Virus record (IMG/VR): IMGVR_UViG_3300025154_000277 | Coordinates: 1-34,117 of that record | Source: a virus | Strand: one strand, 5' to 3' | Length of the DNA: 34,117 nt | Part shown: piece after piece, positions 575 to 31,030 of the stretch | Numbering within the stretch: the stretch's first letter is position 1 | How the letters are laid out: each line of letters starts with the position of its first letter | Notes under the pieces: generated by a model | Seen by the model: the letters and a program-made list of their open reading frames with translations, nothing else | What the model was told of the DNA's origin: nothing | Databases searched by the model: none | Program-made: the position numbers and the translations under genes

Positions 575-1010
575 ACCGTGCGAAATGAGCTTACGGTGAA
601 AGCCAAAAAAGGGCATAGGACAAATTTACCGGCTGGCTACTACCAGCAACCTATCCTCCGACCGCAGAGAGTGATTCCTGACGTTTCGCACAGTTTTTCC
701 GACAGGCGGGTCGTTATGTAGCCGCCCTGAAAAAAATTATCCGCAACGAGCGGATATTCTCCTCGGCAGTCCGTTCCTCTCCTCGGCGGACTGCTTTTTC
801 GGGGACGTAGCCGGGACGAATCCGGGCGATGCAGGGTCAAGCCTGCCGTCCCCTTTGATGTAAATTGACAAGTAAATAGGCCGAGTTCAAGCACTGCCCT
901 TTAGGCCGGGCTGGTTTGCAGAAATGCAAATCAAAGATGTTTGAATCGGGCGTTGGTGGCGAACGAAATTAACCGAGTTAACCGGTTTGAAATCCAGTCC
1001 AACGCCCCTT
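575..1010 (+). ncRNA. Large structured RNA candidate upstream of the tRNA
   Basis: No convincing gene exists between 536 and 1115, yet the sequence is dense in complementary segments. Helices read directly: 578-585/684-691 (8 bp, perfect); 615-619/650-654 enclosing 632-636/643-647; 703-709/722-729 with one bulged C; 739-744/750-755; 766-773/787-794; 801-807/847-853 closing hairpins near 811-827 and 831-835/842-846; 913-920/925-932 capped by a GAAA tetraloop; 948-956/999-1007 (9 bp) enclosing 971-975/983-987. The block ends 3 bases before a tRNA. Giant phage RNAs such as GOLLD and ROOL are known to lie beside tRNA genes, so this could be a relative or a new class. No conserved GOLLD or ROOL sequence was recognised. 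It could also be several short RNAs separated by the terminator-like hairpin at 766-799. Ends are approximate. Confidence 0.5.
766..799 (+). terminator. Rho-independent terminator-like hairpin
   Basis: A perfect 8-bp GC-rich stem (GCAGTCCG / CGGACTGC) with a 13-base loop is followed at once by five T residues. It has the form of an intrinsic terminator but lies inside the larger helix-rich block, so it may instead be one arm of that RNA. Confidence 0.55.
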
Positions 1011-2745: not shown

Positions 2746-3240
2746 ATGAAAACAATACCACTAACAAGAGAGCAGTTTGCTTTGGTAGATGATACTGACT
2801 TTGCCGAATTGTCAAAACATAAATGGCATGCTGTATTAAAAAGAAATACATTCTACGCCGAGGGCAGTAGTCCAAATAAGAGACGCGGCAATAGAATTGT
2901 TAAAATGCACCGACATATTTTAGGGTTAAAATATGGAGATGGCGTACAGGTTGACCACCGAGACGGAAACGGTCTTAATAATCAAAAAAGTAATCTACGG
3001 ATATGCACATATAAAGAAAATCAGATGAACAGAAGAACAGTAAGAGGGAGTAGCTGTTACAAGGGCGTACATTGGTGCAATAGAAACAAAAGATGGATGT
3101 CTAAGATTTTTTACAAAAAGGCAATTTTTATTGGCTCATTTAAAAGTGAGATTGAAGCGGCAAGGGCTTACAACACCGCCGCTATCAGATATTTTGGGGA
3201 ATTTGCAAATATAAACAAAGGAGTAGAAAATGGAAACTAA
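2746..3240 (+). CDS. HNH-AP2 homing endonuclease inserted in the ATPase gene
   Basis: A 164-residue intact member of the same family as the gene at 68. It has the N-terminal block LTREQFALVDD...KW (6-27), HNH core with H55/H57, D70-H71 and GLNNQKSNLR (76-85), and AP2-type domain from about 104 (YKGVHWC...AARAYN...FGEFA). It starts 11 bases after the stop of the ATPase N-half. Its last codons carry AAAGGAG, which serves as ribosome binding site for the ATPase C-half starting at 3230 (11-base overlap). With only 11 bases at the 5' side there is no room for an intron or intein, so this is a free-standing gene insertion. Confidence 0.88.
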   Translation: MKTIPLTREQFALVDDTDFAELSKHKWHAVLKRNTFYAEGSSPNKRRGNRIVKMHRHILGLKYGDGVQVDHRDGNGLNNQKSNLRICTYKENQMNRRTVRGSSCYKGVHWCNRNKRWMSKIFYKKAIFIGSFKSEIEAARAYNTAAIRYFGEFANINKGVENGN

Positions 3241-4561
3241 AGACCTTGAAAAACAAAGAAATAATATTCAAGCCAAAATTGCAAAAATTGACGGTATGAG
3301 GCAGAATGTTTTTGCACAGGAACAGGAACGACAAAAAAAGATTGAAGCTAAAAACGCCTTAGAGACAAAGAAAATCAGGCGTGAGAGCGAACTTGCAACC
3401 GACACAAGCGGAATTACCGACCTGCTGAACGAAAAGGCGGAGCTCGAAAAAGCAGTCGCAGAGTGTTCGCAAAATTCGGCTAATGCCTTGAGCGAAAAAA
3501 ATCAAATTAGCAACCAGATTAGCGATAAGAAATCAGAGATTGCCAGATTGACGCGGAATCGGACAGACATTATTGCTGAAATGAAATGTGCTGTCGAGGT
3601 CGATACTGGTATTAACGCAGAGCCAGAATCTGACACTTGCCCTTTGTGCGAACAGAAACTACCTGCCAAAAAGATTGCCGAAGCCAAAAAGAAGATTGAA
3701 GTCAATATCGCTTTGGCCGAGGCACGCAAACAGAAAAACATTGACGACATCAACGAAAGAGGCAATGCGGTCAAGGAGTCGATTGGAAAAGTTAATCAGG
3801 AAATCGAAAGCCTTACGTCTAAATTGCAAGCCGCTCAAAAAGCGTTTAGTGATGCACAGGGCAAGTTGGGTGTTGCTGAATCTGCCAAAACAAAACGCTT
3901 TGCCGAAATTGACGAACTGATTAAAAACAATCCGAAGCCAGACCCGGCCAAAGACCCTGAATGGCAACAGATTGTTACTGATATTGCAAAACTTGAAGCT
4001 GAAATAGGCGAGCCAACAGGCGACCAGATAACGGCTCTTGATAATCGCCGGACAATCCTGAATAACGACCTTGCAGAAGTCAACAAGGCTCTTGCTGATG
4101 CTGATAATGCAAAGAAAGCGAAAACCCGCATAGTTGAACTCGAAACACAAGAAAAGGCACTGGCTCAACAGTTAGCCGACATTGAACGTCTGCTTGCGAT
4201 GATAGGCGATTATACACAAAAAAAATCCGAGCTAATCGAATCATCTGTAAATGGAATGTTTAAGCACGTCAAATTTAAGATGTTTGAAACGTGTCTTAAC
4301 GGCAATATCGAGCCTGCCTGCGAAGCGACTTATAACGGCGTGCCTTACAGCGGACTATCAACAGGTCAGCAAATCTTTGTCGGCATCGACATTATCAACG
4401 TGCTGTCAAAACATTACGGAATATCAGCCCCATTGTTTATTGATAGAGCAGAATCGTTCACAATGAAAAACGAGGCCGAGTGTCAAACAATCGAACTCCA
4501 CGCAAAAATCGGAATCAAAAAATTAACCATAACAAGAAAGGAAGTATTAGCAAATGTCTGA
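3230..4561 (+). CDS. SbcC/Rad50-like ATPase, C-terminal half (split gene)
   Basis: A 443-residue C-half of the ATPase started at 2054. It opens within a long coiled coil, carries a Rad50-type zinc hook CPLC (C137, C140) between two coiled-coil arms, and ends with the C-lobe: ABC signature LSTGQQ (376-381) and Walker B PLFIDRAE (401-408). It lacks Walker A, which is in the other ORF. The ATG is supplied at the end of the inserted HNH gene, with AAAGGAG upstream. The stop overlaps the recT start by 8 bases, so all belong to one transcript. Whether the two halves associate into an active enzyme is inference; no frameshift is seen in either. Confidence 0.87.
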   Translation: METKDLEKQRNNIQAKIAKIDGMRQNVFAQEQERQKKIEAKNALETKKIRRESELATDTSGITDLLNEKAELEKAVAECSQNSANALSEKNQISNQISDKKSEIARLTRNRTDIIAEMKCAVEVDTGINAEPESDTCPLCEQKLPAKKIAEAKKKIEVNIALAEARKQKNIDDINERGNAVKESIGKVNQEIESLTSKLQAAQKAFSDAQGKLGVAESAKTKRFAEIDELIKNNPKPDPAKDPEWQQIVTDIAKLEAEIGEPTGDQITALDNRRTILNNDLAEVNKALADADNAKKAKTRIVELETQEKALAQQLADIERLLAMIGDYTQKKSELIESSVNGMFKHVKFKMFETCLNGNIEPACEATYNGVPYSGLSTGQQIFVGIDIINVLSKHYGISAPLFIDRAESFTMKNEAECQTIELHAKIGIKKLTITRKEVLANV

Positions 4562-15236: not shown

Positions 15237-15322
15237 CAGACTGGCGTACCTTAAACTTACAATCGCTTGATATTATACTTTGCTCCGGCAGCGGGAAGAA
15301 ATTACAGGAAACAGTAATATGA
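15221..15322 (+). pseudogene. Remnant of a duplicated papain-like hydrolase gene (5' end only)
   Basis: This 33-codon ORF encodes MENKITDWRTLNLQSLDIIL and on to GSGKKLQETVI. It matches the start of the intact gene at 15809 (MEDKIYDWKTLNLQSLDILL ... GNGKMSQQIM) at about two thirds of positions. The match ends where the HNH-AP2 gene begins at 15319 (ATGA overlap). It therefore looks like the N-terminus of a tandem or displaced homologue disrupted by the homing gene. The rest of this copy is not seen in the window. The protein, if made, would be inactive. Confidence 0.75.
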
Positions 15323-15805
15323 AAACAATTCAACTTACACAGAACAAAGTGGCATTAGTAGATGATGAAGATTATGAGCAATTGTCAAAATATAAATGGT
15401 GCGCACATCGCATTGACAATAATTGGTATGCAGTTAGGTGTACATGGAATGGAGGCAAAAGAATCTTTATTCAAATGCACCGAGACGTTTTGGGACTCAA
15501 GAAAAATGATGGAAAGCAAACTGACCATAAAGACTTTTCTGGGTTGAACAACCAAAAATCAAATTTAAGGGTATGTACTTACCACGAAAACAATCAAAAT
15601 AGACGACAACACAAAAGAAATACTTCAGGATACAAAGGAGTATCTTTGGTGTAAATCGCTAAAGAAGTGGGCAGTTCGGATAGGTTACGACAATACAAAT
15701 CATCACGTAGGTTATTTTTCTAACAAAATAACCGCCGCCAGAACTTATGACGAAAAAGCAAAGGAACTTTTTGGGGATTACGCTTATCTTAATTTTAAGG
15801 AATAA
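15319..15805 (+). pseudogene. Frameshifted HNH-AP2 homing endonuclease
   Basis: Reading from ATG 15319 gives the usual family order: LTQNKVALVDDEDYEQLSKYKW, then MHRDVLG, then TDHKDFSGLNNQKSNLRVC, then SGYKGVS. It then stops at 15652-15654. The missing AP2 end continues in the +1 frame from about 15647 (WCKSLKKWAVRIGYDN ... AARTYD ... FGDYAYLNF) to TAA 15803-15805. One extra T in the run at 15645-15647 explains the shift. Removing it restores a protein of about 161 residues, like its relatives at 68, 2746 and 23053. It is either a true mutation or a sequencing error. Confidence 0.85.
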
Positions 15806-22532: not shown

Positions 22533-23056
22533 TGAAAATCTGCTCATACTGTCATTTGCCAATAACTGACGATGCTACCATAAAAGCACAAAGGACAACC
22601 TGTGTTTGTATGAAAGCACCATTAGATAACGTTATGAGGCCAACGCCAGTGCCGGATTTAAATCTTGCAGATTATTGTAATAACGAAACAAATATCAGGG
22701 CTTGGGGTGAAAAATTCCCTGTGTGTATCGAGGAATTAGATAAATCTTCTCATGTGCCAGACGATTGCATTGGTCGTTTAATAGTTGTTGCCAAAAACGA
22801 GGGCGGGTTTAATAGCACATCTGTTGACTTGTTGGATATTATTGAATGGACAAAGAAGAATAAGCCGCAACTTATAGGCATTTCTATTACCGCCCAACAC
22901 GCTCGTTCTCTATCGGAACTCATGAAGCACTACCGCAAAATGAAAGAACTTTTTAGCAGAGATTGTGTTGCTGAAAACATTGCAAAAGATAATCCAGACT
23001 CCACTCCACTGACATTGGATTATCTCGATGAACTGATTAAGGATTTGGAAAAATGA
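22532..23056 (+). CDS. Hypothetical protein with Cys-rich N-terminus
   Basis: A 174-residue protein. ATG 22532 overlaps the preceding stop by one base (TAATG) and has a GGAG site, so it is preferred to an ATG 24 bases upstream. It opens with MKICSYCHLPI and a TTCVCMK segment, a likely zinc-binding pair of CxxC/CxC. The rest is mixed helix and strand (GRLIVVAKNEGGFN, IIEWTKKNKPQLIGISI). The HNH-AP2 gene overlaps its end by 4 bases. No family recognised. Confidence 0.65.
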   Translation: MKICSYCHLPITDDATIKAQRTTCVCMKAPLDNVMRPTPVPDLNLADYCNNETNIRAWGEKFPVCIEELDKSSHVPDDCIGRLIVVAKNEGGFNSTSVDLLDIIEWTKKNKPQLIGISITAQHARSLSELMKHYRKMKELFSRDCVAENIAKDNPDSTPLTLDYLDELIKDLEK

Positions 23057-23538
23057 AAGAAATAAAACTAACACAAGGTAAAGTGGCAATTATTGATGAC
23101 GTTGACTACGCCGAATTATCAAAATATAAATGGTATGCTCGTCTGGAAGGGAAAGTATATTATGCTCAAAGAGGCGTAAAGAAAAGCAATGGAAAAAGAA
23201 CAATACAAAGAATGCATCGTTTTTTAATGAATCCTTCAGTTGGAATAGGCGTTGACCATATTGACGGCAATGGACTCAATAATCAACGAAGCAATTTGCG
23301 TCTCTGTAATCAGTCTGAAAATTGCAGAAATCAAAGAGCAGTTAGGGGTGGAAGTAGCAAATACAAGGGTGTGGATTGGTTTAAATTATTAAATAAATGG
23401 CGAGCAAAAATATATGTTAATCACAAGAGTGTTCATTTGGGTGTCTTTGCCTCCGAAGAAGATGCGGCATCGGCATATAACAATACCGCAGTGAAGTATT
23501 TTGGTGAGTTTGCAAAACCAAACGAGGTGGCAGCGTGA
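23053..23538 (+). CDS. HNH-AP2 homing endonuclease
   Basis: A 161-residue intact member of the same family as those at 68 and 2746: LTQGKVAIIDDVDYAELSKYKW (6-27), MHRFLMN (H55), GVDHIDGNGLNNQRSNLRLC (66-85; D68, H69) and an AP2-type C-terminus (YKGVDWFKLLNKWRAKI ... FGEFA). Both neighbours look whole, so unlike the copy at 2746 it seems to have entered between genes. It overlaps both by 4 bases, so it carries its own coupling signals. Confidence 0.88.
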   Translation: MKEIKLTQGKVAIIDDVDYAELSKYKWYARLEGKVYYAQRGVKKSNGKRTIQRMHRFLMNPSVGIGVDHIDGNGLNNQRSNLRLCNQSENCRNQRAVRGGSSKYKGVDWFKLLNKWRAKIYVNHKSVHLGVFASEEDAASAYNNTAVKYFGEFAKPNEVAA

Positions 23539-28828: not shown

Positions 28829-28872
28829 CTCTTTATATAAAACTGAATAATTGATTTAGCAAGACAAGCGAT

Positions 28873-28925
28873 AAAAAGCCCTTGTATTTGAGTTCCATAA
28901 CGGACTCGGTACGAGGGCTTTTTTT
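28873..28925. terminator. Strong bidirectional intrinsic terminator
   Basis: AAAAAGCCCT (28873-28882) pairs fully with AGGGCTTTTT (28914-28923), with an inner helix GAGT/ACTC, A-run on one side and T-run on the other. It should stop transcription in both directions, and separates the portal group from the scaffold/capsid group. The 250-base gap 28829-29076 otherwise shows only one doubtful ORF. Confidence 0.8.
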
Positions 28926-28952
28926 GTTGCCATATACAAACGGGAATCAGAG

Positions 28953-29087
28953 TTGCTCGTTGCAACTTTGTTAATAACCGAGGCAGCCAAACAGGTACGA
29001 CCTAAAGGGTTAAGCCAAGGGATATATGTTGTTCCGGAAAGAGACAAAGTTCTCAAACGAAAGGTAGGTAGTAAAAATGTTAAGTGA
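28953..29087 (+). CDS. Possible small ORF before the scaffold gene
   Basis: A frame from TTG 28953 to TGA 29085-29087 (44 residues) with protein-like content (LLITEAAKQVRPKGLSQGIY, then VVPERDKVLKRKVG). The same frame is open back to 28875, through the terminator, without an ATG. It overlaps the scaffold gene start. Start codon and binding site are poor, so it may be the remnant of a longer gene. Confidence 0.3.
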   Translation: MLVATLLITEAAKQVRPKGLSQGIYVVPERDKVLKRKVGSKNVK

Positions 29088-29953: not shown

Positions 29954-31030
29954 ATGTCTTTTCATCAGGATGTGGACAACCTCACAAGGGATATGCACGA
30001 TGCCTCGTGGGAAGTTGAATATATGCAGAAGAATCCGGTTACGGCTTTAATGCTGGAGCGGAAGAATCTGCGGTTTTCGGGCGGAAGTCAGTATTACAAG
30101 GAATTGGATACCGACACAGACGAAGACCTTGTGCAGGATTACGATGCCAATACCACACTCACTCACGGCGTTAAGGACACGACCGAACGCGCGACTTTCA
30201 AGAAAAAGAAATTCCAGTGTCCGGTACAGATTGACGTTGATGAGGAATTGGATAACGGCAAACAGTCAGCAGATGGTACGCAGTTGTATAGTCTGGCTAA
30301 ATACCGCGTCGAGAAAGCGAACAAGGCTTGTCGATTCCATATGCGAAAGTTGATGTATAGAGGCACTGGAGTCTCCGGTGCGGCTACGGACAGCAACAAG
30401 TATGTTCAGGGTCTCAATAACGCATTGAGAGTTGACCACACATACGGCGGTATCACCAGAACTTATTCAGCGGGTACATCTGCTGATACTGGCTTCTTCT
30501 GGCAGCCAATGGGTGGAACTATCACTACGACGGTACAGGATACCGAGACAGCAATCAGTATTTCGTGGTTGCGTGGCGTTCTCGAACCTCTCGAAGACCT
30601 CGAAAGCGATAACACCAGCCTCGTTACCATTGTCGGTGGCGTGCTGTGGTTAGCTTTGCAGGCCGAAGCAGAGGCTCGGAGCCTGCCTTATACGATTGAA
30701 AAGAATCGTATCGCTCGTCAGGGTTTTGAGGAAATGATAATTGATGGCCGCAGGGTCGTCAAAGACCCATTCCTGAAAGCCGCAAACAATACTGCGATGG
30801 GCGAAACATCGGCCAGTGCCGGTGCATTGGAACGGCGCATCTACTGCTTGAATCTTATGGATTGGGATATGTTCATCCATCCGGACAGAAACTTCAAGCT
30901 GACTGAGTTCTTCGACCAGAAGAACATCGCCGGCGGTTCTGATATGAAACTCGCAAGAGTTTTGTTTGCCGGAAACCTTGTCTGTTGGCATCCGAATAGC
31001 CAGTTGTACTATTCGAACATCATACCCTAA
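29954..31030 (+). CDS. Major capsid protein (HK97 fold inferred)
   Basis: A 358-residue protein after the scaffold gene, with a strong site (AGAAAGGGACA). Its N-terminal region (FHQDVDNLTRDMHDASWEVEYM), the mid helix rich in RVEKANKACRFHMRKLMYRG, repeated Gly/Thr-rich strands, then a C-terminal part with WHPNSQLYYSNIIP fit HK97-fold major capsid proteins of non-cleaved type. Assignment is from place, size and layout; fold is inferred. It would form the icosahedral shell. Confidence 0.8.
   Translation: MSFHQDVDNLTRDMHDASWEVEYMQKNPVTALMLERKNLRFSGGSQYYKELDTDTDEDLVQDYDANTTLTHGVKDTTERATFKKKKFQCPVQIDVDEELDNGKQSADGTQLYSLAKYRVEKANKACRFHMRKLMYRGTGVSGAATDSNKYVQGLNNALRVDHTYGGITRTYSAGTSADTGFFWQPMGGTITTTVQDTETAISISWLRGVLEPLEDLESDNTSLVTIVGGVLWLALQAEAEARSLPYTIEKNRIARQGFEEMIIDGRRVVKDPFLKAANNTAMGETSASAGALERRIYCLNLMDWDMFIHPDRNFKLTEFFDQKNIAGGSDMKLARVLFAGNLVCWHPNSQLYYSNIIP

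Follow-up and report, generated by a model that had tools for sequence, protein, structure and literature searches.

A structured, gene-free stretch beside a phage tRNA-Met gene as a candidate small-RNA and leader region

We confirmed that the gene-free stretch immediately upstream of the tRNA-Met gene in a linear virus record of 34,117 bases (the whole record is called the window here) is, as a whole (571-1009), more structured than expected by chance, and the reading that we favour is an unclassified small-RNA and leader region, not a proven giant RNA. The stretch covers 477 nt (536-1012), from the end of an HNH gene at 535 to the tRNA, beyond which the next gene starts at 1116. Every gene of the window with a family match lies on the + strand, the tRNA-Met is the only tRNA gene of the window, and the GC content of the intervening stretch is 52% vs 42% for the genome. 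The features are listed below; the helices come from the partition function, and all have a mean pair probability (P) above 0.7.

68-535, + strand: free-standing HNH_3 homing-type endonuclease gene, the left border of the structured region
571-799, + strand: block A, a putative RNA of ~225 nt with a multi-branched domain, two hairpins and a terminator-like hairpin
578-691, + strand: multi-branched domain with a 10-bp closing stem, 578-587/682-691 (mean P 0.98)
594-600/625-631 and 632-636/643-647, + strand: helices
705-709/722-726, + strand: small hairpin
738-756, - strand: 7-bp hairpin, 738-744/750-756, with T7 after it on the minus strand, terminator-like on that strand
765-799, + strand: hairpin of 8-11 bp, 765-775/785-795, then TTTTT, intrinsic-terminator-like
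801-1009, + strand: block B, a putative structured tRNA leader (from the shuffle test)
801-853, + strand: three-way junction (mean P 0.90-0.99) whose outer stem has 7 bp, 801-807/847-853, with inner arms 810-812/825-827 and 831-835/842-846
885-946, + strand: second three-way junction (mean P 0.92-0.99) with outer stem 885-893/938-946, one arm at 896-899/908-911 and a 9-bp GAAA-capped arm at 912-920/925-933
948-1007, + strand: hairpin closed by nine perfect pairs, 948-956/999-1007, ending 5 nt before the tRNA
1013-1086, + strand: tRNA-Met (CAT) with an initiator-like C1:A72 (Rfam, 60 bits)

The original prediction had read at least ten helices by eye, and the partition function supports those it named, including the three-way junction closed by 801-807/847-853; the GAAA-capped hairpin (912-933) and the perfect 9-bp stem near the tRNA both have high predicted probability. 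The helices do stop just before the tRNA, the last stem ending at 1007. The description of the tRNA as a phage initiator held only in part, as the C1:A72 mismatch fits an initiator but the anticodon stem, as read from the sequence, has only two of the three G:C pairs. The claim that the region holds no convincing gene was borne out, and a check for a protein-coding pattern across it found none, with coding signal absent from 571-1009 on both strands. The sole ORF of at least 60 aa is antisense (640-894, 84 aa), and its codon score is -0.02 vs +0.05 to +0.32 for the window genes, a coarse measure by which some other antisense ORFs reach +0.23. It has no Pfam match and a PHROG match only at E 0.29, and we rejected an antisense protein for having neither codon signal nor family. 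Related HNH endonuclease ORFs occur four times in the 34 kb (68-535, 2746-3240, 15280-15654 and 23053-23538), all resembling one L120 gene, and the HNH/AP2 endonuclease ORF at 2746-3240 lies between the two parts (2054-2734 and 3230-4561) of a split SbcC-like gene whose L002 homologue is one ORF of 648 aa.

Fold strength was compared with 200 dinucleotide-preserving shuffles per strand, using ensemble energy and counts of confident stems. For 571-1009, none of the 200 shuffles per strand had an ensemble energy as low (z -2.9 for +, -3.2 for -), with concordant values from separate fold-energy runs (z -2.7 and -2.8), and on the + strand there were seven stems of at least 7 bp at P>0.8 against 1.84 in shuffles, none of which reached this count (0/200). 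Block B is clearly structured and favours the + strand, the same as the tRNA: 801-1009 gave z -3.4 on + and -2.5 on -, with four stems of at least 7 bp on + vs 0.72 in shuffles (1/200) and one on - vs 0.62. The signal in 571-800 was weaker (z -1.9 on +, -2.7 on -), and the strand of block A is not settled. Nine perfect complements of at least 7 nt were found where, as a rough estimate, some six to eight would arise at random, and a single stem picked by eye is therefore weak evidence.

These tests also bear on whether there is any functional RNA here, since the stretch might instead be a GC-rich intergenic remnant of insertions or degenerate tRNAs beside a mobile endonuclease gene. Among 567 pieces of 120 nt scanned across the window, the one at 721 came ninth (z -3.5), and the region is notable yet not this genome's extreme. 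The eight pieces with lower z would suit a remnant, as would the nearly equal fold strength of the whole stretch on the two strands, the adjoining homing-type endonuclease gene and the fact that no homologue retains the stretch. Such a remnant is nevertheless very unlikely in our view, given that all 200 dinucleotide-preserving shuffles were beaten, that block B prefers the + strand, and that among 38 tRNA-upstream stretches compared, the window's has the lowest z (-3.6).

We searched Rfam with cmscan, using gathering cut-offs for the window and E 10 for 520-1100, and besides chance matches at E 10 only the tRNA was found. The original prediction had proposed GOLLD, ROOL and HEARO as models to search, and none of them matched, even at E 10. 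GOLLD was rejected on this ground and because the stretch is 477 nt at most and has a terminator-like hairpin inside it; ROOL and group I and group II introns were rejected for want of a model match, and a HEARO or OMEGA-type RNA for the same reason, the neighbour at 68-535 being an HNH_3 homing-type endonuclease. A tmRNA was rejected as none was called by default ARAGORN or Rfam; very relaxed ARAGORN settings gave tmRNA permutations among 25 spurious hits. Read as degenerate tRNAs, 801-853 and 948-1007 offer an acceptor-like stem, but the T loop and D loop are unconvincing and default ARAGORN rejects them, and a by-eye comparison with self-cleaving ribozymes and riboswitches gave no convincing likeness.

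What remains of the proposed large, ornate phage RNA is a structured, gene-free stretch beside an initiator-type tRNA; its description as one GOLLD- or ROOL-type RNA is not supported, with no Rfam match, a length of ~440 nt and a terminator-like hairpin splitting it at 765-799. One large RNA that folds as a whole, either a very diverged GOLLD or ROOL relative or a new class, which might form multimers and share a transcript with the tRNA, would share its setting beside a phage tRNA with both families (PMC12286853), and the two three-way junctions, the GAAA hairpin and a possible long-range pairing between blocks A and B would be in keeping with it. That pairing is a perfect 8-bp complement (608-615/895-902), of which ~1.5 are expected by chance. 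We consider a single large RNA unlikely, as its length, the lack of an Rfam match at E 10, the internal terminator-like hairpin and the failure to find a homologue all weigh against it.

Collecting homologues from related phage contigs, as the original prediction had suggested, yielded none. No homologue of the stretch was found by blastn against phage and plasmid records, 27 related viral records, loci fetched via the SbcC gene or contigs of capsid relatives, nor by blastn of 798-1012 against E. coli genomes, nor among 38 loci retrieved through their tRNA. Single-sequence covariance models of three blocks gave only self matches, chance hits or tRNA hits in related viral records, and exact or degenerate DNA patterns had no match in viral and genome collections. 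An apparent match of 16 nt (87%, E 0.14) with the G037 stretch was dismissed as within chance, and the SbcC-gene scan was a dead end, L060 being the only one of the checked loci with a tRNA. Metagenome contigs were outside these searches, so the absence of homologues is not strong evidence.

Relatives gathered via terminase and capsid proteins were compared by position. Most of them have no detected tRNA, and both other capsid-sharing lineages found with such a setting have a structured gene-free stretch before the tRNA, unrelated in sequence. The closest capsid relative having a tRNA-Met is the L188 contig (capsid 72% identical), whose binning in a Planctomycetota genome is a weak host hint.

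Reverse complement of 35341-35602, L188 record (G039:C193; L194-L196): putative tRNA leader

This putative leader contains the promoter TTGACA-N17-TACACT, a fold of 145 nt (z -3.6) and a T7 run directly before the contig's only tRNA-Met. Its GGCCCTGTTGC can pair upstream with AACAGGGC or downstream with GCAACAGGGTC, the T7 coming after the latter, and these competing pairings make a terminator/antiterminator layout. G037 and G038, which are identical across this stretch, have a 321-nt fold (z -3.8) flanked by an integrase gene and a tRNA-like match, and in G037 the stretch could be an attachment-site region. G002 is related only via the SbcC-like gene, and its tRNA has no comparable stretch. 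The cases are few, and by position they favour a role at the tRNA, as leader or small RNA, over one conserved giant RNA. Separately, L137 (1501-1935, - strand) has a 114-nt tRNA-like match, not called by ARAGORN, next to a strongly folded gene-free stretch and the gene of a tyrosine-type integrase; this may be an attachment site.

We propose a phage tRNA locus that encodes small structured RNAs, in which a ~225-nt RNA is followed by a tRNA leader, and which sets tRNA-Met output or gives rise to small RNAs with other uses, and we give this reading an even chance of being right. The stretch would be read on the + strand, as the neighbouring genes are. The hairpin and T5 at 765-799 argue for at least two transcripts, and we infer from the sequence that the first RNA, of ~225 nt and running roughly from 571 to 799, would end there. 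For transcripts passing 799 or starting after it, 801-1007, with both junctions and the 9-bp hairpin, would serve as the tRNA-Met leader; if RNase P frees the tRNA, as general tRNA processing would suggest, a structured by-product of ~210 nt would be left. The leader would most likely set the amount of tRNA-Met through termination or processing, and alternatively it could be a free trans-acting RNA. We counted in favour of the leader explanation the fold strength exceeding all 200 shuffles, the preference of block B for the strand of the tRNA, the internal terminator-like hairpin at 765-799, the terminator/antiterminator layout before the tRNA-Met of L188, the 321-nt fold before the tRNA-like match in G037/G038 and the lack of a match to a single-RNA family. 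Counted against it were the absence of any promoter found within 571-1009, the 13-nt loop of the terminator-like hairpin (beyond the limit of 8 in the terminator scan, its T run having been read from the sequence), the unrelated sequences of the relatives' stretches, the chance that the one in G037 belongs to an attachment site, and the 608-615/895-902 complement linking blocks A and B, a feature in keeping with a single RNA.

A pattern scan with the window tRNA led to 13 other phages with the same short-D-loop tRNA-Met (L150, L153, L154, L155, L160, L165, L166, L170, L177, L178, L181, L182 and L186), in which arrays of recurring non-coding modules lie within ~500 nt of the tRNA-Met; Rfam hits the scanned arrays only at the tRNA. 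Each module has constant ends, with a self-complementary arm that varies, and similar arms recur in different modules, as if swapped. One of them, GGGAGTG-ATATGGTAAG-arm-AA-T arm-CACTTCC-ACTA, is tRNA-like, with an acceptor and T arm and without an anticodon arm. Once the interior of the arm is removed, 98% of cells in its alignment pair, and both sides have changed in 8/17 pairs vs 3.4 in shuffles (0/500). Some bias remains in these figures, as the arm ends were set by position beside the constant parts, one sequence was shifted by one base, and two divergent copies (that of L170 and the second copy of L177) were omitted.

These arrays lend some weight to the idea that the window stretch encodes one or more free trans-acting structured RNAs, for example a decoy or counter-defence RNA, that are merely adjacent to the tRNA, since the 13 phages carry them beside the same tRNA-Met type and the tRNA-like module is supported by covariation. 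The L150-type modules have no homology to the window stretch, and we judge this idea improbable. Slightly less doubtful, though still one that we lean against, is the broader suggestion, by analogy with the swapped-arm arrays of the L150-type phages, that phage tRNA genes might mark sites where unrelated, heavily structured RNAs are installed and exchanged as modules, the window being one such locus with its own undescribed set.

Another structured RNA was observed elsewhere in the window, at 28931-29079, where it leads the capsid operon, ahead of an ORF at 29077 and the major capsid gene at 29954. It is conserved in seven related phages, with both sides changed in 9/13 consensus pairs, and has two copies of AAA(G/C)-stem-loop-stem-AAA(C/G), the second of which includes the ribosome-binding AAAGG. 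The Rfam search gave no hit for it, and it looks like a new cis-regulatory RNA. At 28866-28927 there is a very strong hairpin (z -11) that has A and T runs and is probably a bidirectional terminator before the operon. The capsid-operon leader and the L150-type tRNA-like modules are better evidenced than the stretch beside the tRNA.

Taken together, the observation at the tRNA-Met is real and the locus is unclassified, ordinary in kind until homologues appear. Annotation easily misses gene-free structured stretches beside phage tRNAs. Should related lineages retain such a stretch at the same site, each with a sequence of its own, selection may be acting on the position itself, possibly for control of tRNA supply during infection or for holding counter-defence RNAs.

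Among known systems, GOLLD and ROOL are phage RNAs found near tRNAs, one GOLLD lying downstream of a Met-tRNA and many GOLLD members exceeding 800 nt, while ROOL is a phage or prophage RNA with complex secondary structure that is often near tRNA islands (PMC12286853). Like GOLLD, the window stretch is phage-borne, tRNA-adjacent and rich in helices and junctions, but it is about half the length of many members, has an internal terminator-like hairpin and shows no recognised conserved 3′ domain. It shares with ROOL the tRNA-adjacent phage setting and a complex predicted secondary structure, and differs in being shorter and having no Rfam match. The tRNA clusters of T4-type phages include stable small structured RNAs of unknown function, and the window would resemble them in having small structured phage RNAs in or beside tRNA genes, although it has one tRNA and no cluster. 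Transcription attenuators differ from the window, which has no established competing pairing and 210 more structured bases between hairpin and tRNA, but they share with it a structured leader whose terminator-like hairpin precedes the gene presumably controlled, and the related phage of L188 has competing pairings.
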